Below, one piece after another: positions 5,104 to 42,238 of a DNA stretch of 64,000 bases. Position numbers and translations under genes: made by a program. The stretch covers positions 1-64,000 of the forward strand of contig QKAN01000158.1 in the NCBI GenBank assembly GCA_003246365.1. The letters are read 5' to 3'. The notes under the pieces were generated by a model. It did not search any database, was not told where the DNA came from, and worked only from the letters and a program-made list of their open reading frames with translations. Position 1 is the first letter of the stretch. Every line of letters begins with the position of its first letter. Source of the stretch: Clostridia bacterium (GTDB lineage: Bacteria > Bacillota > Clostridia > Christensenellales > CAG-138).

Positions 5104-5637
5104 ATGCGAAACGTGGTGCTGTTTATTGCGATGAGCCTGGACGGATTTATCGCGGCAAAGGACGGCGGGGTGGACTGGCTGGTCGGGCAGGACCCGGACA
5201 GCACGGAGCCGGGGAGCTATCCGGCGTTTATCGCGGGCGTGAGCGACATCGTCATGGGGTACACGACGTACCACCAGCTCGCGACCGAACTTTGTCCCGG
5301 CGCATGGCCGTATCCGGACAAGACGACCTATGTGCTGACGCACCGCGAAGGGGAGACGGCGGAGGCAGGCGTCTCGTTTACGGACGAACCGCTGGACGCG
5401 CTCATCGGCAGGTTAAAGGTGCAGCAGGGCGGAGAGATTTGGATTTGCGGCGGCGCCGCCGTCGCAAACCAGTGCATCCGGCTGGGGCTGATCGACCGCT
5501 ACCACATCAGCGTGATTCCGGTGATTCGCGGGGGCGGGGTGCGGTTGTTTGAGGCGCTGGATGCGCCGATTCCGCTCAGGCTGATTTCGACCGAGAGTTA
5601 CAACGGGATTGTGGATTTGGTGTATGGGGAGAGGTAA
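5104..5637 (+). CDS. Dihydrofolate reductase / RibD C-terminal family protein
   Basis: MRNVVLFIAMSLDGFIAAKDGGVDWL...DIVMGYTTYHQL...EIWICGGAAVANQCIRLGLIDRYHISVIPVIRGGG. Start set at ATG 5104 inside the longer ORF. Confidence 0.88.
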   Translation: MRNVVLFIAMSLDGFIAAKDGGVDWLVGQDPDSTEPGSYPAFIAGVSDIVMGYTTYHQLATELCPGAWPYPDKTTYVLTHREGETAEAGVSFTDEPLDALIGRLKVQQGGEIWICGGAAVANQCIRLGLIDRYHISVIPVIRGGGVRLFEALDAPIPLRLISTESYNGIVDLVYGER

Positions 5638-5744: not shown

Positions 5745-6341
5745 CTACACAATGCTTTCAATTGCGTTGACTAACTGATCAATGAAAATATAACAATTTG
5801 TAACCATTTCATCATCGATCTGCGTGAGCATTCCCGTTGGTTGATCAATATCTGACTCGTGAACAATCTTATTTCTACGGTTAACAATAATAGCTAGTTT
5901 AGCAGAGATGTCTTCTGCAGTAAAACCCATAATTGGAGATAAAGCGGACCACACTTTATTCACTTCTATTAATGATAATGCATATTCAACATTTCGAGGA
6001 GCTTGGAATGAAGATTTTGCATTCATTTGTTGCAAGTAACCATCAATTAAGAGTTCTCTATCAATTGTATTGTTTGCACAAATAATATTTTGTATTTGAA
6101 AAGAAGAAAAAGAAACGGGATTCTTGGGGGATAATGAACAAGAGAAGAACTTCGCAACAAACTTCTCTCGAACTAAATCATGCAGATATTTATCAAAACA
6201 ACTTATTATAAATGCATATTGCCACCTCAACAATTGAGACACGTCAAGATTCGGTGCTGCTTTTATTATGTAATTATATAAAGAAGAAATATCTGTTAAA
6301 TAAACAATACTTCGTTTATATGTCTTTAATGAGTTACTCAT
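5745..6341 (-). CDS. HEPN-domain (RiboL-PSP-HEPN-like) putative ribonuclease
   Basis: C-terminal RRNKIVHESD fits the HEPN Rx4-6H motif; all-helical. Start set at MSNSLKTYKRS (6341), which overlaps the stop of the ParA-like gene (ATGAGTAA). Confidence 0.65.
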   Translation of the reverse strand: MSNSLKTYKRSIVYLTDISSLYNYIIKAAPNLDVSQLLRWQYAFIISCFDKYLHDLVREKFVAKFFSCSLSPKNPVSFSSFQIQNIICANNTIDRELLIDGYLQQMNAKSSFQAPRNVEYALSLIEVNKVWSALSPIMGFTAEDISAKLAIIVNRRNKIVHESDIDQPTGMLTQIDDEMVTNCYIFIDQLVNAIESIV

Positions 6342-7374
6342 TTTCAATAAGTTCAACAACCCTTTCCGCAAAAATTCTAAACAATAATTTAAACCAAGAG
6401 AGGGTTTTCGCTTGTCCTTCGTGAGCGTGATCAAGTTTTAGTTCAAAAATTGGCAAAGACTTTTCATGCGATAACGCAATTAACTTATTAAAATTTGAAA
6501 ATTGTGCAAGACAATAATGATCATAATAGTCCTCAATGTGATTTGCTTTCTGAACCATGTTTCTATATGCTCTTTCGTATGCATCTTCGCTTAGCGTCAT
6601 ATTATTCTTTTTTAGATCTTCTATAAAAGTAGTAGTTATAACTGATGAAATTTTACTCATAAACCCAGCAAAGCTTGCTTGAGGATGACCACCAGATAGA
6701 TTAAAATCATTTATCGTATATCCTAAAAAACGAGGAGTGGTGTTAGAAATCTTATAAGTCGCTTCAGAGAATGAATCTCGAGCACTTTTTGCCCATGCTT
6801 CCCAAGAAGGTAGCACTCGAGATAGAGATTTGATTGCCATGGCAGAGAACACATCAGGTGCGGTAGGAATTATGAAAAAATCACTACTTAATAAGATGTC
6901 CTCGTTTATTGCGCTAAGACTTGGATTGAGATCAAAAATAGTATAATCAATACTATATTTTTTACAAGTTATATCTATTAAATAATTTATAGCACCAGGT
7001 AGATTCTGCATTGAGCCTAAAGAGTTTGACAATTGCATAGCAACACCAAGTTGCATTTCGTTTTCAGAAAAATCGATGTGACCAGGGCATAAAAACAAGC
7101 GTTCCTTGATTTCGATGCAATTTACTGGTGTAAGTAAACGCGGTTGTGATTTGAATGCTGGCGCTAATGCATCGTGTATATTTTCTTGAGATCCGGACTC
7201 ATAATATTTTTCAAATTCATCTTGACCTAACGCATATTGAGTGAGATTACACTGAGCATCGGCATCAACAAGTAAAATTCGCTTGCCAAGTGAAGCAAGA
7301 CTCCAACCTAGATTATATGATGTTGTTGTTTTTGAAACGCCACCCTTGTGATTAAATACTGCAATCCTCTTCAT
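6334..7374 (-). CDS. ParA/Soj-like P-loop ATPase
   Basis: Deviant Walker A FNHKGGVSKTTT; ILLVDADAQCNLT; YTIFDLNPSLSAINEDILLSSDFFIIPTAPDVFSAMAIKSL. Confidence 0.9.
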   Translation of the reverse strand: MKRIAVFNHKGGVSKTTTSYNLGWSLASLGKRILLVDADAQCNLTQYALGQDEFEKYYESGSQENIHDALAPAFKSQPRLLTPVNCIEIKERLFLCPGHIDFSENEMQLGVAMQLSNSLGSMQNLPGAINYLIDITCKKYSIDYTIFDLNPSLSAINEDILLSSDFFIIPTAPDVFSAMAIKSLSRVLPSWEAWAKSARDSFSEATYKISNTTPRFLGYTINDFNLSGGHPQASFAGFMSKISSVITTTFIEDLKKNNMTLSEDAYERAYRNMVQKANHIEDYYDHYCLAQFSNFNKLIALSHEKSLPIFELKLDHAHEGQAKTLSWFKLLFRIFAERVVELIENE

Positions 7375-7392
7375 AATTGACCTCTCTCAAAC

Positions 7393-7431
7393 TATACTGT
7401 TAATTATAGTATAAAAAGCAATTTTGATCAA
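7393..7431 (-). promoter_or_regulatory. Sigma-70-type promoter with overlapping inverted repeat for the ParA-like/HEPN operon
   Basis: Minus strand TTGATC (7431-7426), 17 nt, TATAAT (7408-7403); TATACT/AGTATA arms at 7393-7398 and 7408-7413 overlap the -10. Confidence 0.6.
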
Positions 7432-7438
7432 TTTGTTT

Positions 7439-7966
7439 TCACTCCCTCTCCCTCAACATCTCTTTCAACTCCGCAATCTCCGCCTCCATCCGGTGCAGAT
7501 GCTTCTGCATGTCGTCAATCTCCTGCTCGGCTTTGTAGTTGATCGCAAAGTCGATGATCGCCTCGTGCTTGTCCCGCGCGGCCTGTCGGTTCTGGCTCAT
7601 CATAATAATCGGCGCCTGAAACGCGGCGATGAACGAGAGGATGAGGTTGAGCAGAATGAACGGTTTCGGGTCAAACTGCACGCCTAAAAACGCGAGCGTA
7701 TTGATTAGAATCCAGAGGAAGAGAAACGTCGCGAAGATGATGATAAACGTCCAACTGCCGCCGAACGAGGCAACCTTGTCCGCCACGCGGTCGCTGCGCT
7801 TGGTGTGCAGTTCATAGTCCTCGTCCAGCCGGGCGGCGACGCGCTTTTCATAGCTCTCCACCATCTTGTCGATGCGGGAGAGCTTTTCGTCGTTCAACTC
7901 AATGCCGTAACCGCGAATCTTCGTTTTGCTTTCGGCTTTCGTCGAAATTTTATCCTTTTCCGTCGC
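7439..7966 (-). CDS. DUF1003 family membrane protein
   Basis: DRVADKVASFGGSWTFIIIFATFLFLWILINTLAF...DPKPFILLNLILSFIAAFQAPIIMMSQNRQAARDKHEA. Confidence 0.9.
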   Translation of the reverse strand, partial: ATEKDKISTKAESKTKIRGYGIELNDEKLSRIDKMVESYEKRVAARLDEDYELHTKRSDRVADKVASFGGSWTFIIIFATFLFLWILINTLAFLGVQFDPKPFILLNLILSFIAAFQAPIIMMSQNRQAARDKHEAIIDFAINYKAEQEIDDMQKHLHRMEAEIAELKEMLRERE

Positions 7967-8094
7967 CATACGCGTCGTCTCCTTGCATGCTGTGATAGCC
8001 ATATTTTATCAGCATCGGTTGTATTCGTAAACGGATTTTCGGCGCGGCGTGGTATAATGGTTCAAACGAAACCACGCAGGAAGGGGAAAACGAT

Positions 8095-21094: not shown

Positions 21095-24000
21095 TTAATG
21101 CGCTTTCGACCGGAAACCGAGCGCAACCAGCGCCGCTTGCACAAGCGTGATACCCGCCATCAGAATCGTCCAGCGGTCAACCATGACCATTGCGCCTGAC
21201 AAGTTCTGCGTCAGAATAAATGCAAGAATCGCGCCTGCCGCGGGAAGTAATGTCGAGATGCGGAACGTCTTATTCGCGCGTGTGAGTCTGTCAGCTCGTT
21301 TCTTCTTCAACAAGGCGATGATCGAGCCGATGCCGATGGTTGTTAACGCTGCCAGAATCAGGTTTGCCAGTGACCAGGTCGGTCCAGCGAGCGGCGTTGC
21401 CTGATCTGGAATTATCTGCGCCTGCAGGGAAACCTGCGTGAGTGTTCCATAGAACGTCAGGTCCTGATCCGGCATCGTGGCCGGGATTACGTTGGTCCAT
21501 CCGCCAAAGGTGTAACCATCTTGCGACGGATCGTTCGGAATCGGAACAGTTGCGCCATACGGAATATCGGTGTAACTTGCGTACGGCGTGGTTCCGTCTA
21601 AACCATCCAGCGTTCCGCCGTTAACGATATAGGTAACGGTGTAGTAGAGCTGTTCCCATTGCGCATAGAAGTTGACTTCCGTTGCGGGCATTACAAATGT
21701 GTTGCCCGGCTGCTGTGTTACCGCTCCGGTTGGGGTTTCACTCCAGCCGATGAATCGGTATCCGGTTCTCGTGAACGAGTTTGCGTCAACCGTAACCAGA
21801 GAGAGCGTTGCGTGGAGGTCTTCGGTATAATCTGTACCAGTACCGCCGTTAGCATGATAGATGACAGGCGAGAGGTTGGCAACCCAGTTTGCAGTAAGTA
21901 CTACGTTGTTTGCCGGCATTGCAAAGGCAGCGCCGGATGCATAGGTTTGCGCAACGCCGGTAATACCCGTTGTAGTCCAGTTAACGAAGGTGAAACCTGC
22001 ACGCAGCGGAATCGTACCGGAGACGGTGTAGTTGGTGTTATACAGTACAGCAGCTACGTTCGCAGGCATGTTGGTAACGCCAACCGCGCCGGCTACATAC
22101 GTAACCGAATAGGGAATCGGTGCCCAGACGGCGAGAAGCGTAATATTCTCCGTCAGAGCAGGAATCGTTTCACCGAGCAGGTAGACGGTTAAGGTTGCCG
22201 CGTCCTGCCAGCCTGTCAGCGTGTAGCCAACCCGCGCCACACCAGCACCGTCGCTCAGAAGGGCAGCTGTGTTATACGCAAACCACACTGTTGCAGGCAT
22301 TCCCGTTACGGCATCCGTCGTGTTCGCGTCGTAGACGATTTGCGGGTCGATGGTGAAGTCCGCAGGCGTTACAGTAATGGAATAGTTGGCTTCTGCCGTA
22401 GCGTCCGCCGCAAGGATATCTGCCGAGATGACGCCCGTATGGACGCCGACGTCTTCCGCGGTTGCCGCGCTGATGTCGGTGCGCATCGGACTGACCGTGA
22501 TTCCGGTGCCGTCGATGATGTCATAATAACCAACGCCGGTCATGAGCGAATATGTGAAGGTCGGGTCGACATCGCCGAAGTTTTTCGCCGCAGAATCCAT
22601 TACGATGGTTACGGTACGCGGCGTTATCGTCAGCGTGCCGTATTCTCGCGTGATGTTATAGTCGCCAGCAGTCGTGTTGGCTTTCAGTTCCGGCAGATCA
22701 AACAGGTTGTCCACCGTTCCAACATTGACAATACTGCCCGTTGGTGCGGGTTCCGTTGCAAAACCTTCGCCGGAAACGAATCCGTCTGCAATACCGGCGA
22801 GGTCTTCAATCGTGTAGCCGGTTGCTGTCAGTGCGGTGTTATCAAACACTTTCGAATCGGAGTCGGAAATTACGTTCACATCGCGGACTTCGATTGTGAT
22901 ATCTGCGCTGCCGAAGGCCGGATTATAGTTCGGGTTGGTTGCAACGAAGTACACGGTCATGCTTTCGCTGACGTGCGTCGCTTTCGGGCTTTCCGTCAGC
23001 TCATAGTCCGCCGGATCCGTGTGCGGTGAAGTGCTGTAGCGGATCACCGTTCCGTCGGTAATAGCAGTATCGGTACCCTGAATATTTGCCGCGGCAGTGA
23101 CGCCATGAGCGGCTCCGTCATAGATGTCCGAATACGAACTTGCCTTAACTTCCATCGTATCGGCCGGCAGCACGTTTAGGATTCCATGTTCATAGGACAC
23201 GGTATAGTTGCTGGAAAGCGTTCCCGGAAGGAATGTTACGCCGGTAATCGTATTCCAGGTTCCGCTGTCGGAAACGTTGGTTACCGTGCTCAAACTGCTG
23301 AAGCTGACGCTGGCAAGTCCTTCCGATCCGACGAACGATCCGCTGGTAACGTCATAGTAATGCCAGGTTTGCGCGGAGCCGTTGTACGTGAAATCATTTG
23401 ATTGTGCCGTCAGCTCAATTGCTACGGGGTTGATGCTAACAGTCGCGACTCCATAGTATGGGAAGTAGTTATCCATCGTCACCACGAAGTAAACCAGATG
23501 CAGTCCGTCCGCGTTGGTATAGGTCGGACTTGCGCTGAGCGTGTACTGCGACGGGAACAGATGAGGAGACGTCGAGTAGCGGATTTTTGCGCCCTCTACC
23601 GTTGTGCTGACGGTAATGCCGTGCGCCGCGCCGTCGTAATCGTCAGAATAACCGCTGTATACGATCGGCAGGAAAGCGGGCGAAATGGTCAGGTACCCTT
23701 TCCACGTGGACACATCATACTGATAAGTCACGTCGGTTGAACCGCTCATAATCTTGAAGTCTGGGGTCAGCGTAACATTGGCCGTGTATACGCCAACGTT
23801 CGTGCCGGAACCGAAGACCGTATATCCGGTAACCGTTACGCTGTTATCGGACAGGGACGCCGTTGTGATGGACTGTTCGGTGCCGTTATAGACTTTTACG
23901 GCGGAGTCAGCGCGGATAATCAACGTTTTGTTTCTGACATACAACGCGTTGATGACGGTGTTAGCGGTTATGTTGCTTGCCGAAGCGGGATCAAATGATC

Positions 24001-27000
24001 CGCTCCAGTAATAATTGCTGCCGCGATAGGTGGTGTTCTGCGGCGGGGTAAACCCGCTGTAGGACGCGCTTCCGGTTCCGTAATCGACCCATTCCGTATA
24101 AAGAACAGTGCCGTTTACGTTGATACGGTAGGTAACCTGCGGCCGTATCATCAGCGATCCGTTGATGAACGTTACGGTGTATTGATTGGTAACGTCTACA
24201 CCTCCGCTGTAAATAATCAATCCGTCCGTATTTTGGAAGGTTGCTTCATAGATGCCAGGTGCTGTGCTGTGCACTCCGGCGGTAGTTGTTCCGCCAAAGG
24301 TCAGCGTGCCGGAAGAATCATCGCTGGTGAATCCGCTAACGCTCTTTAAGATTCCGTCATAGTTGACCGTTGCACTGTTTGCGGTTAGAGTTAGCGCAAT
24401 TTTCTTTTCCCAATTTGCAGTAAAGGTCAGGTTGCCAGTCGAACCGATTTCAATAGTCGTATCCGAAGGCGTCCATCCGAGGAAATAATAACCGTCGCGA
24501 GAAGGATCGAACAAGGTGAAAGTAGGCGTTTCGATGGTATATGTGTCGGGGTTTCTCGGGTCATTAATACCCTCGTTCATGTTATAGGTAATAGAGTATT
24601 CAATCGGGTCAGACCAGACTGCGGTGAACTCCAGATTGCCGGTGGTTACACCCTGCGTAATCGTGGTGCTGAACGCCGAATCCCAGCGCACGAAATTATA
24701 ACCGACGCGGGAAGCATCCGCGAGCGTGAAAGTCGGGGTTTCAACGGTATACGAATCTAGGTTGGATGCAGGATTCGTACCGCCGAGTAAATTGTTGTAG
24801 GTAATAGAGTATTCAATCGGGTCAGACCAGACTGCTGTGAACTCCAGATTGCCGGTCGTTACGCCTTGCTCAATCGTGGTACTGAACGCCGAATCCCAGC
24901 GCACAAAATTATAACCGACGCGGGAAGGGTCCGCGAGCGTGAAAGTCGGGGTGTTCACAGTGTACGAATCTAGGTTGGATGCCGGATTCGTGCCGCCGAG
25001 TAAATTATTGTAGGTAATAGAATATTCAATCGGGTCAGACCAGACGGCGGTGAACTCCAGATTTCCGGTGGTTACGCCTTGCGTAATCGTGGTACTGAAC
25101 GCCGAATCCCAACGCGCGAAATTATAGCCGACGCGGGAAGGATCCGCAAGCGTGAAAGTCGGGGTTTCCACAGTATAAGAATCAAGGTTGGATGCCGGAT
25201 TCGTACCACCGAGTAAATTGTTGTAGGTAATAGAGTATTCGGTCGGGTCAGACCAAACCGCAGCATAGGTCCTTTCGCCAGTTGAACCCTGCGAAATTGT
25301 GGTGCTGAACGTCGAATCCCAACGGAGGAAATCATACCCGACACGGGAAGGATCCGCGAGTGTGAAAGTCGGGGTTTCCACGGTATACGAATCTAGGTTG
25401 GACGTCGGATTCACAGCGTCGAACATGTTGGTGTAATCAATACTGTATGGTATTGGCACAGACCAGACGGCGGTGAACTCCAGATTTCCGGTTGTCACAC
25501 CCTGGGTAATCGTGGTGCTGAACGCCGAATCCCAGCGCAGGAAATTATACCCGACGCGGAACGGATCCGCGAGCGTGAAAGTCGGGGTTTCAACGGTATA
25601 CGAATTAAGGTTGGATGCCGGATTCGTGCCGCCGAGTAAATTGTTATAGGTAATAGAATATTCAATCGGGTCAGACCAGACAGCGGCATAGGTCCTTTCG
25701 CCGGTTGAACCCTGCGAAATCGTGGTGCTGAAGGTCGAATCCCAACGGAGGAAATCATAACCAACACGCGAAGGATTTGACAACGTGAAAGTCGGAGTTT
25801 CAATGGTGTATGAATCAGGATTGGACGACGAATTCACAGCGTCGAACATGTTGGTGTAATTGATGCTATATGATATTGGCGCAGACCAGGTCGCTGAGAA
25901 AGTTTTATTACCAGTCGAACCAACAGGGATTACGCCGCCGTCCGACCAACTCACAAAATCGTATCCGGGTCGCGTCGGGTTGGTTAATGTCAATGGCAAA
26001 ACGTTTGCGGTATAGCTGACGGGATTGTTGTTGCTCGCCGGAGCGATCGAACTGTCATTCAAATTATAAGTAATTGTGTAAGAAGCGGCCTTATAATAGA
26101 ACGTTATCACATTACCCGTATACAATAATGTAATGGTCTGCGGATCGGTGGAATTTAACGTATAACCATCTGGGGTAGTTTTGGCATATTCTGTTACGGT
26201 ATCGCCGATGTATGCGGCGACGGTAAGATCAGGGTATAGTTTTTCATTTGTGTCTTGGTCAAGGTAATGGACTGTATAGGTTGTTGGAACTTGCCCTTCC
26301 ATGATGTTTGCAGTAACAGTATAAAAGTATGTTGCTCCATCCAGTTTTATTTGTCCGTTACTATATACGTCATGGTTATCAAAGTTTCCTGACACGCCGA
26401 GCATACCCGCATCCATGTTGGTTTGAAACCAGTTTAATACTTCGACACCTCTTTCTGGTATGCTATCCAACTGGGCATCTGTCAGATAAAAAGTGTAAAC
26501 CGCCAGTTCAGTGTCATCTTTATTGCCGAGATAAAAAGTAATAGTTACTTCGTTGAGTGTGGAGGTTGACTCAACAGAGAATCCAAACAATGCACTCATT
26601 AGCAAAGGAGCAACGCCAAACTTGGCAAACAGGGTAAACGAGGAATGAACCTGACTCGAAAAATCGTAACTTGAACCGTCGGCCGTTGCCCAATATAGGA
26701 ATACCATGCCGTCAAATTCTTCACCGGCCGGGGTATCGGGGATGAAAGAAGGCTCAATTACACTCGCATTTTCGACAACCAACTGCGTGTCGACCGTTTC
26801 GCCGTTTACAACAAATTGAACGGTGAACTCTACAGGGGCAGGTGTTGGCGTAGGCGTAGTTTCCGTGTCCGGACTTGAAGATGAGTCGGGGGTTGGATCA
26901 TCGGACGGATCGGATGATGGCTCGGGTGTAGAGGTGTCCAACAGGGGAGTATCGCTGGTCTCTTCATCCGATGATAACGTGCTTGACGGAATAATCTGTG

Positions 27001-27106
27001 CCCGCACGCTGCTGGCTTCAGCAAGCGCTGACACGGGCAAGAGCGAAAATACCATTAAGAAACAAAGTGCCAAGCTGATGAGCTTGCTGATACGCGATCC
27101 TTTCAT
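21095..27106 (-). CDS. Giant repeat-containing surface protein (InlB_B/Listeria-Bacteroides repeats, MucBP-like, MBG-like domains)
   Basis: Signal peptide MKGSRISKLISLALCFLMVFSLLPVSALAEA; S/T/P-rich linker; YTVHYLDQDTNEKLYPD MucBP-like; repeated YSITYNNLLGGTNPASNLDSYTVETPTFTL..GY.F.RWD units; C-terminal TM segments, no LPXTG seen. Confidence 0.88.
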   Translation of the reverse strand: MKGSRISKLISLALCFLMVFSLLPVSALAEASSVRAQIIPSSTLSSDEETSDTPLLDTSTPEPSSDPSDDPTPDSSSSPDTETTPTPTPAPVEFTVQFVVNGETVDTQLVVENASVIEPSFIPDTPAGEEFDGMVFLYWATADGSSYDFSSQVHSSFTLFAKFGVAPLLMSALFGFSVESTSTLNEVTITFYLGNKDDTELAVYTFYLTDAQLDSIPERGVEVLNWFQTNMDAGMLGVSGNFDNHDVYSNGQIKLDGATYFYTVTANIMEGQVPTTYTVHYLDQDTNEKLYPDLTVAAYIGDTVTEYAKTTPDGYTLNSTDPQTITLLYTGNVITFYYKAASYTITYNLNDSSIAPASNNNPVSYTANVLPLTLTNPTRPGYDFVSWSDGGVIPVGSTGNKTFSATWSAPISYSINYTNMFDAVNSSSNPDSYTIETPTFTLSNPSRVGYDFLRWDSTFSTTISQGSTGERTYAAVWSDPIEYSITYNNLLGGTNPASNLNSYTVETPTFTLADPFRVGYNFLRWDSAFSTTITQGVTTGNLEFTAVWSVPIPYSIDYTNMFDAVNPTSNLDSYTVETPTFTLADPSRVGYDFLRWDSTFSTTISQGSTGERTYAAVWSDPTEYSITYNNLLGGTNPASNLDSYTVETPTFTLADPSRVGYNFARWDSAFSTTITQGVTTGNLEFTAVWSDPIEYSITYNNLLGGTNPASNLDSYTVNTPTFTLADPSRVGYNFVRWDSAFSTTIEQGVTTGNLEFTAVWSDPIEYSITYNNLLGGTNPASNLDSYTVETPTFTLADASRVGYNFVRWDSAFSTTITQGVTTGNLEFTAVWSDPIEYSITYNMNEGINDPRNPDTYTIETPTFTLFDPSRDGYYFLGWTPSDTTIEIGSTGNLTFTANWEKKIALTLTANSATVNYDGILKSVSGFTSDDSSGTLTFGGTTTAGVHSTAPGIYEATFQNTDGLIIYSGGVDVTNQYTVTFINGSLMIRPQVTYRINVNGTVLYTEWVDYGTGSASYSGFTPPQNTTYRGSNYYWSGSFDPASASNITANTVINALYVRNKTLIIRADSAVKVYNGTEQSITTASLSDNSVTVTGYTVFGSGTNVGVYTANVTLTPDFKIMSGSTDVTYQYDVSTWKGYLTISPAFLPIVYSGYSDDYDGAAHGITVSTTVEGAKIRYSTSPHLFPSQYTLSASPTYTNADGLHLVYFVVTMDNYFPYYGVATVSINPVAIELTAQSNDFTYNGSAQTWHYYDVTSGSFVGSEGLASVSFSSLSTVTNVSDSGTWNTITGVTFLPGTLSSNYTVSYEHGILNVLPADTMEVKASSYSDIYDGAAHGVTAAANIQGTDTAITDGTVIRYSTSPHTDPADYELTESPKATHVSESMTVYFVATNPNYNPAFGSADITIEVRDVNVISDSDSKVFDNTALTATGYTIEDLAGIADGFVSGEGFATEPAPTGSIVNVGTVDNLFDLPELKANTTAGDYNITREYGTLTITPRTVTIVMDSAAKNFGDVDPTFTYSLMTGVGYYDIIDGTGITVSPMRTDISAATAEDVGVHTGVISADILAADATAEANYSITVTPADFTIDPQIVYDANTTDAVTGMPATVWFAYNTAALLSDGAGVARVGYTLTGWQDAATLTVYLLGETIPALTENITLLAVWAPIPYSVTYVAGAVGVTNMPANVAAVLYNTNYTVSGTIPLRAGFTFVNWTTTGITGVAQTYASGAAFAMPANNVVLTANWVANLSPVIYHANGGTGTDYTEDLHATLSLVTVDANSFTRTGYRFIGWSETPTGAVTQQPGNTFVMPATEVNFYAQWEQLYYTVTYIVNGGTLDGLDGTTPYASYTDIPYGATVPIPNDPSQDGYTFGGWTNVIPATMPDQDLTFYGTLTQVSLQAQIIPDQATPLAGPTWSLANLILAALTTIGIGSIIALLKKKRADRLTRANKTFRISTLLPAAGAILAFILTQNLSGAMVMVDRWTILMAGITLVQAALVALGFRSKAH
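24388..25890 (-). repeat. Tandem 210/213-bp coding repeats in the surface-protein gene
   Basis: Phase mark CAATCGG(GTCAGACC) at 24601, 24814, 25027 and the equivalent at 25240 and about 25450: spacings 213, 213, 213, 210. Confidence 0.85.
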
Positions 27107-27799
27107 ATTTTTGTCCCCCTCATATTGCAAAAACATTAGTTATATTTATAGACAGATTCTATGATAACCATTATAGGAATGGACTATTACATTGAAGTGT
27201 TTTTTCAACGGGTTTCGAAAAAAAGTTTTTTGAGAAAAGGGCTGTTTTTTGCACGTTTTTGGCGATGAAGCTGGTTTTACGGATCGTTGTTACATTGACG
27301 TTGCTTTAGACTGCTTACAAACAAAGAAACCGGATCAAAACAAGAACAAACGTACGCATTAACGGAGAGATACGGCAAACTTAGAACATGTATTTTCGGA
27401 ATTTCTACAATATTAATTAGAACATAGAAGCGGCATGATTTCTGCTCCAAAATCATTACAAATTCATTACAATCGATAACGAAACGAGAAAAATAAAAGT
27501 GATTTTCAGTGCGACCAAAAAACGATGAAGTTTGTTTGGAACACGGACTTTCGGGGATGATCACACTCCAAATGAAAGTTAGAGTAATGCTTGCTGCGAA
27601 ATACCACACGTGGTACCGAATGCGAATCTCTTAAACGAAAAACATTCATCCAGACGAGATCAGATTATGCAGAAAAAAACGAATAAGGCTTTAAAAATTG
27701 CATAATTCTTAAATAAAAATCGTAAAGCATTTCACGGTATCTGTTTTAAATTTTACAAAGATTTTCCGTATGTTTTACATGCTGAAAACCACGAATATA

Positions 27800-38096: not shown

Positions 38097-38307
38097 CTTT
38101 TCCGTAATATCAGAAATACTGAGTATTATCACGCTGAAATATTACATGGAACAAGAAAATACCCTTATTTTGGCGTTTTGCAACACTATTTGTTTAACAA
38201 AATTACGGATTTTTATTGTAAAATGTAATCATGTAATATAATATTGGAATATAGGACAAATCGTGTTGCTGTACCAAACTGCCCGCTTTACTGGGAGGTG
38301 GAAGCAA

Positions 38308-39138
38308 TTGGAAGAAAATCTGAGCACGATGATCGTTCAAACAGCCAATGCATACGCCGTCGATCTGTCGGTTTTTGACGACGAATTTTTAACCAAGTCC
38401 TTTTTTCGAAAATACGAAGCATCCGGGATGAATAACCCAATTGAATATTGCGCCTTTCTGCAAGAAAACCACATCGAAGCAACAGACTTTTTTCAATCAT
38501 TGATCATTACCTATACTACCTTCTTTCGAGATCCGTTTATGTTTACCTATTTGGAACATCGGATTATTCCTGCATTGGTTCGAAACGCGCAAGCAGGAAG
38601 TGAAATACGAATTTGGTCTGCCGGGTGTTCCTCCGGCCCGGAAGCGTATTCCATTGCCATACTAATAGACGAGCAAATACAACTGATACAAAAAGAAATC
38701 CGCTTCCGTGTTTTTGCAACAGACATTTCGGGAGAAGTATTATCGATTGCACGTGAGGGAATATATGACGCAACCGCAATGCAGAACGTGAAACTAAAAC
38801 ATTTGCAGCAATATTTTTCAGAGAGCAATGGGAAATACAGCGTATCGGCCAACTTAAAAAATCACGTCAGTTTCTCTGCTTATGACCTCTTGGACACATC
38901 TTCGGCAAATCCGCCGGACAGCATATTCGGTAACTTCGATCTGATAAGCTGCAATAATTTGCTGATGTACTACAAAAAAGAGATCAGGCTGAACATACTA
39001 AAAAAATTCGAACGATCGTTGGCTCCAAACGGTCTACTGGCGGTGAGCGAAGCGGAGCGGGCGTTCGTGAAAAACAGCACGAAATTTCAACCGATATCCA
39101 TGCCGATTGCGGTTTTTTATAACCCAAATAATTCTTGA
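38308..39138 (+). CDS. CheR-type protein methyltransferase
   Basis: TTFFRDPFMFTYLEHRIIPAL, IRIWSAGCSSGPEAYSIAILID, RVFATDISGEVLSIAREGIYD, FDLISCNNLLMYYKKEIRLNIL. TTG start chosen from GGGAGGTGG RBS. Confidence 0.88.
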   Translation: MEENLSTMIVQTANAYAVDLSVFDDEFLTKSFFRKYEASGMNNPIEYCAFLQENHIEATDFFQSLIITYTTFFRDPFMFTYLEHRIIPALVRNAQAGSEIRIWSAGCSSGPEAYSIAILIDEQIQLIQKEIRFRVFATDISGEVLSIAREGIYDATAMQNVKLKHLQQYFSESNGKYSVSANLKNHVSFSAYDLLDTSSANPPDSIFGNFDLISCNNLLMYYKKEIRLNILKKFERSLAPNGLLAVSEAERAFVKNSTKFQPISMPIAVFYNPNNS

Positions 39139-39220
39139 ACATATCTCCCGGGAAAACCGATGACAAATGATGGCGTTGTAGAGCAGGTTACGAATGATGT
39201 GAATGAGGGGGAGGAGCGTT

Positions 39221-42200
39221 ATGAATAAAAGAACCCTGACAATCGGCGCGCAGCTGCTAATCGGCTTTTCGGTTGTTTTGGCGTTTGTTGTTATATTAGG
39301 CGCGGTTTCCGGGGTTCAAACCGTCCGCCTGTATGAACGCGAACAAACGCTGTACGATCATCCGCTTCAGGTGAAGGAAGCGACAGACCAAATAACAATC
39401 GATGTTTTGGATTCGCGCGTTGCGATTCGCGATTATATTCTTTTTAACGACGACGCCGTGAAGAAGCAGGAAGCGCAGCAAATTATCGCGACATCGTTCA
39501 GCAGCATTGAGAAACAACTTGATAAAATTGGTGAATTATATTTGGGACCCACAGAGGATATAGAACGGGCAAACGAATCTTTCATCAACTGGAAAGTGGC
39601 AACACAAAACAGGATGAATCAAGCAAAAACCGGCGAAATGCAGTCGATTATTGCCAGCCTGGGTGATGACGGGAATGTCGGCAGCTACAGAATTCAGTTT
39701 GCAGCGGATATCAAAGTGATCGATGATTTTGCAAGCAACAAAGCAACCGAACTGAACACGGATTATTCGGCGTACTACCGATCTATGATCACAAGCAGGA
39801 ATGTATTTATCGGTATTATCCTGGGGCTCTCTGCGCTCATCAGCGTCTATATCATAGAATCAATTCGCAGGCCGCTTGCTGAATTCATCACTGAAATCAG
39901 TCATTTCCGTGAGGGTAAACTAGACGCGAGAATCGGTTATTCCAGAAAAAACGAATTCGGAAAACTTTCCGCTTCCTTTAATTCCATGGCGGATGCCATT
40001 CAGATGGATATCCAACTAAAGACGAAGGCAACAGGGATATCCGACGCAATGTTGCGGCATGAAGATAAAAAGACGTTCTTCCGAACCATGTTGGAAGAGC
40101 TGGCGAAAGAGTTTTGCGGCAATACAGCGGCGGTGTATTTGCTAAGCGCGGATAAGAAGACATTCCAATGCTATGATTCGATCGGGTTAAATGGAGAAGC
40201 GCGGGAGTCGTTTGATGCGCTGTTATCAGAAGGCGAGTTTGGCATGGCGCTTGCCACGAAAAGACCGCAACTGATTTGCAGACTGCAAGAGGACGCAAAA
40301 TATCGTTTTCCGACTTCCAGCGGCGAACTGACTCCGAATGAAATTATCACGATTCCAATCGTCTCCGGAAGCGACGTTATTGCGGTTATTTCGCTGACGA
40401 GCGTAAGCCGGTTCTTTGAACACGCTGATCAATTGATCGAGATTATTGTTCCGACGCTTAGCGCCCGCATTGAAGGAATTCTCGCTTATCAGACGATTCA
40501 GGATATGCTGGCTAGAATGGGTCAGCAGAACCGTGAGCTAGACGCACAGAAAAATGAGCTGACCGCGCAGGCGGATGAACTGATGCAGCAAAACGCAGTG
40601 CTGGATATGCAGAGCAGCCAACTGGCGGAAGCGAGCCGACTGAAAACGACTTTCCTCTCGAACATGAGTCATGAGCTGCGCACACCGCTCAACTCGATTA
40701 TCGCGCTTTCCGGTGTTCTGACAAGGCGACTTTCCAGCGCAATACCGGAGGAAGAACTGAGTTATTTAGAAATCGTTGAGCGTAACGGAAAACATCTATT
40801 GTCGCTGATTAACGATATTCTTGATATCTCGCGAATCGAGGCGGGACGGGAAGAAATTGAAATAACGAAATTTGGACTGGCCGACATTATTTCAGATTTG
40901 ATACAAATGCTTACGCCGCTTGCCCGGCAAAAAGGAATCGATCTGGTTTGGATAACGCCGGATATTGATGTTCGTTTCATTAGCGATGAACGAAAATGCC
41001 GGCATATTTTACAAAACATCATCAGCAATGCGGTTAAGTTTACCGAAACCGGTGCGGTGACAATTGAAACACTGTTGCTGGGGGATAATGTTCGGATAAA
41101 AGTGACCGACACAGGAATCGGGATTGCAAAGGAACACATCGCCAGCATATTCAATGAGTTTCAGCAGGCGGACAACAGCACCTCCCGAAAATATGGCGGC
41201 AGCGGGCTTGGGCTCGCCATCGCGAAAAAATACGCGGAGTTTCTTGGCGGCAGTATTACTGTTTCGAGCACGCCCGGCGTAGGGTCGGAATTTGTTATTA
41301 CGCTTCCGATTTCACAAAGAGGGGAGAAGCCCACCACGAAACAACAGAATGAATTTATGCCGGAGTTACCTCTTCCAAAGCGTATTTCTGGAGCGGACAA
41401 CGTTTCCTCGTCGAACGGAAAAACCATATTGATCATTGAAGACAGCGAACCGGCGATCATTCAGGTGAAGGATTTTGTGGAACAAAACGGCCACAAGATG
41501 CTGGTTGCGCGCAGTGCGCGCGAGGCCTACAAAATTGTGGAAGAGACGGTTCCCGACGCGATCATCCTCGACCTGATGATGCCGGAGATCGATGGTTTCG
41601 AGACTCTGAATACGCTGCGCGCATCGGAAAGAACGGCGGACATTCCGGTTTTGATTTTAACGGCAAAGCAGATCACGAGTGAAGAACTCAGTCAGCTCAC
41701 GAGAAACCATGTTTCGCAGATCGTTCAAAAGGGCGGCATCAACAGCAGCGAGTTTCTTGCGGCAGTTTCGAGGATGCTTCAACCGCCGACGGAACAACCC
41801 GAAGAAACGAGCGTAAAAGTCGAAACGGAACAACCTGTTACGGCAACAGCACAGGAAACGCAAGCAGGGGAAATGCCGCTGGTTCTGGTTGTTGAGGACA
41901 ATGCGGATAACAGAACGACCGTGCGGGCGCTTCTGATGGACGATTTTCGCGTGATTGAAGCGGAAGACGGCGAAAAGGGCGTTGAACTTGCGAAAAAAAC
42001 AAAACCGGATTTGATATTGATGGACATCGCACTGCCGGGCATCAGTGGAATCGATGCGTTTCATGCGATTCGCAATGCGCCGTCGACCTGCCATATTCCG
42101 ATTATTGCACTGACGGCCAGCGCAATGCTTCAGGAACGCTCCAGCATTCTGGCACACGGGTTTGAGGCGTTTGTTGCAAAACCGATTCAGATCGACGAGC

Positions 42201-42238
42201 TGATTTTGTCGATTAAAGAGGTGCTGTATGGACGATAA
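39221..42238 (+). CDS. Hybrid sensor histidine kinase (HAMP, GAF-like, HisKA, HATPase, two REC domains)
   Basis: FLSNMSHELRTPLNSIIAL; NIISNAVKFTETG; GSGLGLAIAKKYAEFLGG; REC 1 ILIIEDSEPAI..LDLMMPEIDG; REC 2 VLVVEDNADNR..LMDIALPGISG. Confidence 0.93.
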   Translation: MNKRTLTIGAQLLIGFSVVLAFVVILGAVSGVQTVRLYEREQTLYDHPLQVKEATDQITIDVLDSRVAIRDYILFNDDAVKKQEAQQIIATSFSSIEKQLDKIGELYLGPTEDIERANESFINWKVATQNRMNQAKTGEMQSIIASLGDDGNVGSYRIQFAADIKVIDDFASNKATELNTDYSAYYRSMITSRNVFIGIILGLSALISVYIIESIRRPLAEFITEISHFREGKLDARIGYSRKNEFGKLSASFNSMADAIQMDIQLKTKATGISDAMLRHEDKKTFFRTMLEELAKEFCGNTAAVYLLSADKKTFQCYDSIGLNGEARESFDALLSEGEFGMALATKRPQLICRLQEDAKYRFPTSSGELTPNEIITIPIVSGSDVIAVISLTSVSRFFEHADQLIEIIVPTLSARIEGILAYQTIQDMLARMGQQNRELDAQKNELTAQADELMQQNAVLDMQSSQLAEASRLKTTFLSNMSHELRTPLNSIIALSGVLTRRLSSAIPEEELSYLEIVERNGKHLLSLINDILDISRIEAGREEIEITKFGLADIISDLIQMLTPLARQKGIDLVWITPDIDVRFISDERKCRHILQNIISNAVKFTETGAVTIETLLLGDNVRIKVTDTGIGIAKEHIASIFNEFQQADNSTSRKYGGSGLGLAIAKKYAEFLGGSITVSSTPGVGSEFVITLPISQRGEKPTTKQQNEFMPELPLPKRISGADNVSSSNGKTILIIEDSEPAIIQVKDFVEQNGHKMLVARSAREAYKIVEETVPDAIILDLMMPEIDGFETLNTLRASERTADIPVLILTAKQITSEELSQLTRNHVSQIVQKGGINSSEFLAAVSRMLQPPTEQPEETSVKVETEQPVTATAQETQAGEMPLVLVVEDNADNRTTVRALLMDDFRVIEAEDGEKGVELAKKTKPDLILMDIALPGISGIDAFHAIRNAPSTCHIPIIALTASAMLQERSSILAHGFEAFVAKPIQIDELILSIKEVLYGR

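Follow-up and report, generated by a model that had tools for sequence, protein, structure and literature searches.

ParA proteins are known as movers of DNA and other cargo. In the 64,000-nucleotide stretch of a Clostridia bacterium contig analysed here (the window), a ParA-type ATPase gene is followed by a gene for a HEPN protein, and the locus raises the question of what such an ATPase does beside a protein of this kind. The two genes probably form a horizontally acquired defence or toxin-antitoxin cassette in which HEPN is the predicted RNase effector and the ATPase the regulator. A preliminary description had reported a Walker-type ATPase and, after it on the same strand, an all-helical HEPN protein, with overlapping genes in an AT-rich block and without a parB-like partner, and these points were borne out (Table 1). 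The overlap ATGAGTAA is read in both open reading frames, that of HEPN running from an ATG at 6341 to a stop at 5745 on the minus strand. The GC content of the block is 0.32–0.36 against approximately 0.5 on both sides, and no parB was found next to the ATPase gene or the pair; the neighbours are the HEPN, RibD_C-like, and DUF1003 genes.

Table 1. Features of the locus (window positions) and groups of related loci (L numbers)
Feature	Position or loci	Strand	Description	Basis
RibD_C/DHFR-like gene	5104..5637	(+)	conserved left flank of variable site
HEPN gene, RiboL-PSP family	5745..6341	(-)	198 aa, second gene	ORF, Pfam, motif, fold
Stop/start overlap ATGAGTAA common to both genes	6334..6341	(-)	8 bases	sequence
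ATPase gene, ParA-type (AAA_31)	6334..7374	(-)	346 aa, first gene	ORF, Pfam, fold
Inverted repeat TATACTATAATTAACAGTATA across the -10 box	7393..7413	(-)	candidate operator
Best sigma-70-like promoter of the block, TTGATC-17-TATAAT	7403..7431	(-)	10/12	consensus match only
DUF1003 membrane protein gene	7439..8002	(-)	conserved right flank of variable site
ATPase then ThsA/DSR2-like SIR2, usually overlapping	L240-L269		plasmids and viral contigs
ATPase then RelA/SpoT-type protein	L181/L290, L280-L283, L288, L291-L301		in approximately 12 of these loci

The ATPase matched Pfam AAA_31 with an E-value of 1.7e-28 and displays a deviant Walker A motif (FNHKGGVSKTT), the residues D37 and D148, and a C-terminal motif, LIALSHEKSLPIFEL. 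Its AlphaFold2 model (pLDDT 94.6) has the ParA/Soj fold, and comparison with the PDB retrieved Soj/ParA structures, the best match and closest solved relative being 3pg5 (E=2.1e-12), the uncharacterised protein DIP2308. HEPN matched PF18735 (HEPN_RiboL-PSP) with 41.1 bits, the curated cut-off being 28.4, and the same model matched all of its 55 relatives. The stretch RRNKIVHESD, which had been taken for a HEPN Rx4-6H-type motif, sits in a conserved block with R156-x4-H161 intact, and both residues are invariant in the 55 relatives, together with R39, D50, I159, and D164. The AlphaFold check proposed for HEPN gave an all-helical model with a pLDDT of 97.1. When this model was used in a fold search, the best PDB match had an E-value of 0.8, and the HEPN proteins Csm6 and HepT were among the top, non-significant matches; because the model has no significant match in the PDB, the HEPN assignment is based on the sequence-profile match together with the motif. 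In PADLOC-DB 2.0.0, no model matched HEPN, and the sole match of the ATPase, to PDC-M28B, is confined to a short P-loop segment and does not cover most of that model.

The predicted sigma-70-like promoter lies directly 5' of the ATPase gene. The arm length of the inverted repeat across its -10 box has a p-value of 0.23 in the window when taken alone; an ATACT/AGTAT repeat was found in 3 of 99 upstream regions against a shuffle mean of 0.29 (p approximately 0.003, for a motif picked post hoc). The palindrome is thus a possible operator, which we keep as a lead only.

The pair is not confined to this locus. By tblastn, the same pair was found on plasmids of Burkholderia and in two inoviruses, Pf1 and WX-TY, and it is carried by Pf1-type inoviruses and conjugative plasmids. 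Among cultured hosts, Caulobacter vibrioides has a homologous pair (L081). A ParA-centred scan of 84,980 genomes yielded 515 relatives, the best 80 of which were read; five of these loci lay too near a contig edge, leaving 75 that could be scored. An intact HEPN gene was located directly 3' of the ATPase gene in 64 of the 75. This count comprises 52 pairs scored as full, less one with a frameshift (L093), plus 13 longer HEPNs, mostly cyanobacterial and approximately 235–270 aa in length with an insertion, which were first scored as partial and proved complete on reading. The 52 full pairs come from at least 13 phyla, with one archaeal bin among them, so the conserved linkage that the preliminary description had asked about is present. 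HEPN overlapped the ATPase gene in 46 of the 52 relatives measured, most commonly by 17 bases. The recurrence of the two genes in this order, with overlap, in different phyla makes the pairing more than chance. The ATPase was intact and HEPN broken or missing in nine of the 75 loci, through several independent events, although some frameshifts in metagenome assemblies may be errors; both genes were broken in two. No intact HEPN with a broken or missing ATPase was seen in this ParA-centred sample, which is biased in that most loci were reached via the ATPase.

The two proteins also appear to have evolved together: distances taken from the ATPase tree are correlated with those from the HEPN tree (r 0.834, the best of 999 permutations reaching 0.287), and the ATPase-linked and unlinked states on the HEPN tree are explained by only two changes. 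In a viral scan conducted from the HEPN side, the ATPase was upstream of all HEPNs with family-model scores over 160 bits and absent from all those under 130 bits, which are weaker RiboL-PSPs; as linked members had served to train the family model, this split is partly circular. Other RiboL-PSP HEPN genes, which lack the ATPase, lie on prophage contigs (L191-L208), some of them right after an apparent integrase gene, and are possible solitary defence genes. The pair is rare among Bacillota, where 2 of 398 genomes have it, and no other copy of it was found in the 100 nearest genomes.

The chromosomal site provides the best evidence here that ParA-HEPN is a defence gene pair. In the window, the pair stands alone between two chromosomal genes, and the RibD_C-like and DUF1003 flanks are kept in four congeners with different content between them each time. 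One congener (G006) has a Fic protein with DUF2188 at the site (PADLOC PDC-S04 1.4e-59 and PDC-S16 8e-38), two others (G003 and G002) have two different AAA_13 proteins (PDC-S06, 3e-14 and 8e-170, respectively), and the fourth (G004) has a HerA-like ATPase (1.4e-23). The Fic and DUF2188, AAA_13, and HerA-like cassettes all match defence models; the PADLOC ‘PDC’ models stand for predicted, not proven, defence genes. Alignments of the flanks showed that similarity stops at the cassette edges. A fifth alternative was found on a short contig of the window's own assembly (C197), where a UG5-nitrilase DRT-like protein is encoded beside DUF1003. That DUF1003 gene (L233) is a second copy, 83% identical, and the contig may come from another strain because the bin is 6.5% contaminated and probably mixes strains. 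A further genome (G064) was rejected as an example of the site: it has a close DUF1003 copy, and the neighbourhood is not the same. Because the flanks are kept while the cassettes between them, matching defence models, differ, the site behaves as a small defence-gene hotspot.

ATPases approximately 30–35% identical to that of the window, with the same fold signatures and C-terminal motif, precede other effectors. The ATPase gene is directly followed by a SIR2-family gene on plasmids of Spirosoma, Neorhizobium, Burkholderia stagnalis, Photobacterium, Salmonella, and Vibrio ponticus, with overlaps of 4–17 bases; these SIR2 partners have invariant N-F-D and H-G residues and are closest by sequence to ThsA and DSR2. 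Viral contigs contributed approximately 20 further ATPase-SIR2 pairs and about a dozen pairs with a RelA/SpoT-type protein. One of the latter partners matched PF04607 (E=7e-13) and another retrieved small GTP pyrophosphokinases in a PDB search, and these pairs are possibly toxSAS pairs. In a single case (L273:3001-6293), the ATPase gene overlaps a PglZ gene by 4 bases (PADLOC PglZ E=1.9e-281). In the ATPase tree, the HEPN-linked members form one branch and the SIR2-linked members another, each with 99% SH-aLRT, the RelA-linked members fall in two places, and the solitary ones in several. Two ATPases sister to the HEPN-linked branch are followed by a partner without any Pfam match (L116:7023-7955 and L120:2078-2593), and the L116 partner has RNDAIH, which resembles the HEPN motif.

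Solitary ATPases, with no effector, were found near a repressor gene of the CI type in prophages of the P22-like and lambdoid kinds (L016:3995-5068, L020:3995-5071, L134-L180); relative to the CI-like repressor gene, the ATPase gene is directly downstream in L020 and one gene off in L016. One such prophage gene is present in 109 of 5,426 E. coli genomes (approximately 2%). Since partnerless copies occur in phages, the ATPase is useful in its own right, and these copies suggest superinfection immunity or phage counter-defence.

The effectors that accompany this ATPase family belong to types of enzyme with a known capacity to shut cells down. As the partners are of several such types, the ATPase is the constant component and the toxic enzyme the exchangeable one, from which we infer that the ATPase controls the effector. 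We propose that the ParA-type ATPase would be made first, from a message common to both genes, and that in a healthy cell it would most likely bind HEPN and restrain it. Infection would alter the nucleotide- or DNA-bound state of the ATPase and so set HEPN free, and the freed protein, acting as an RNase through R156 and H161, probably as a dimer, would halt growth or kill the infected cell. Restraint of HEPN is somewhat likelier than its activation by the ATPase, because HEPN has repeatedly been lost with the ATPase kept, the reverse not being seen, and because the ATPase gene is the first of the two; the argument from gene loss is weak, since the sample was drawn mostly through the ATPase. 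The conserved linkage, the hotspot, the swapped effectors, and the one-sided loss give good support to the earlier proposal of a defence or toxin module with a predicted HEPN RNase under the control of the ATPase.

The same parts with the opposite sign of control would give an abortive-infection system that resembles STAND or HerA-type systems: HEPN would be inert alone, and the ATPase would turn it on after detecting infection, e.g. from phage DNA or from a change in a nucleotide. The site held in common with abortive-infection-type genes would accord with this, and the swapping of HEPN, SIR2, and RelA/SpoT partners also suits a sensor with exchangeable effectors. We nevertheless regard such activation as rather unlikely, given that the repeated loss of HEPN beside an intact ATPase, never the reverse, fits restraint better, if weakly in view of the biased sample, and that the antitoxin-first order and the tight overlap do so as well. 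It is more doubtful still that the genes are a plain addiction module which stabilises a mobile element or island and has no anti-phage role: the two-gene layout is that of toxin-antitoxin pairs and the pair is found on plasmids, inoviruses, and islands, but in the window it stands alone between chromosomal genes where relatives carry defence-type genes. That an ordinary partition ATPase, as the ParA/Soj fold would allow, happens to lie beside an unrelated helical protein that is not an enzyme is very improbable, and a partition system was rejected, since parB is absent beside the ATPase, the ATPase co-occurs strictly and co-evolves with HEPN, the R and H of HEPN are invariant, and related ATPases pair with other toxic enzymes.

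With regard to known systems, the preliminary description had regarded the restraint or sensing module as a candidate for an undescribed one, and this holds in part. The ParA-HEPN pair alone is not new, because a dyad of ParA/Soj as antitoxin and HEPN as RNase toxin had already been predicted by Anantharaman et al. 2013 (PMC3710099). As in that dyad, a ParA/Soj-like ATPase gene and a HEPN gene share one operon here. That paper places the HEPN of the dyad in the MAE_18760 family and lists RiboL-PSP-HEPN with ParB, not ParA (PMC3710099), whereas HEPN here is RiboL-PSP by Pfam, as are all 55 relatives. PF18737 (MAE_18760) did not match the HEPN of the window at E-values up to 1, and weak MAE_28990/18760 scores were obtained for 12 of the 55 relatives. 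PF18737 genes in Bacillota were considered as representatives of the 2013 dyad and rejected: they adjoin DUF262/ParB-like genes (the DUF262 label was read from sequence by eye), not an ATPase of the window type.

The type VII toxin-antitoxin system HEPN-MNT (HepT-MntA) likewise combines a nucleotide-binding partner gene with a HEPN RNase that has the Rx4-6H motif; its partner is an MNT nucleotidyltransferase, whereas here it is a ParA-type AAA_31 ATPase. ParABS shares the ParA-type ATPase fold and P-loop, but the present ATPases differ in lacking parB, in having a long C-terminal part with its own motif, and in their toxic-type effector partners. The SIR2 proteins beside the sister ATPases are closest by sequence to those of SIR2 NADase defence (ThsA, DSR2, KomC); unlike in those systems, a separate small ParA-type ATPase gene comes first and there is no Thoeris or DSR partner. 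Searches with PADLOC and NCBIfam gave no named system for the pair, and the searchable literature, which does not include subscription papers and preprints, yielded only the 2013 prediction for ParA-HEPN, ParA-SIR2, or ParA-toxSAS. In that literature, no description was found of the multi-effector ATPase family or of the hotspot context.

The most interesting outcome is the ATPase family with exchangeable effectors. Taken together, the ParA-type ATPases with the C-terminal motif LI[AP]xSQ/SH....P[VI]F may, as a tentative reading, be a general switch for unrelated toxic effectors encoded just downstream (HEPN RNase, SIR2 NADase, RelA/SpoT-type synthetase, and once PglZ), and would then constitute an unrecognised, modular, nucleotide-gated class of abortive infection, with the solitary copies beside phage repressor genes as immunity or counter-defence factors. 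If this is true, a large branch of ParA proteins goes with lethal enzymes of three kinds, and the fold gains a new role in which it turns bacterial immunity on and off. Such an ATPase-effector family would open the toxin-antitoxin prediction of 2013 to direct testing, and the pair with its 8-base overlap is small enough for cloning whole.

Two further regions of the window were recorded. The minus strand at 21095-27136 encodes a 2013-aa secreted protein with many near-identical repeats, which is probably a cell-surface protein. On the plus strand at 38263-42238, a CheR-like methyltransferase gene is followed by that of a large hybrid histidine kinase with receiver domains, both identified by eye, and these genes adjoin a GC dip at 38-39 kb.
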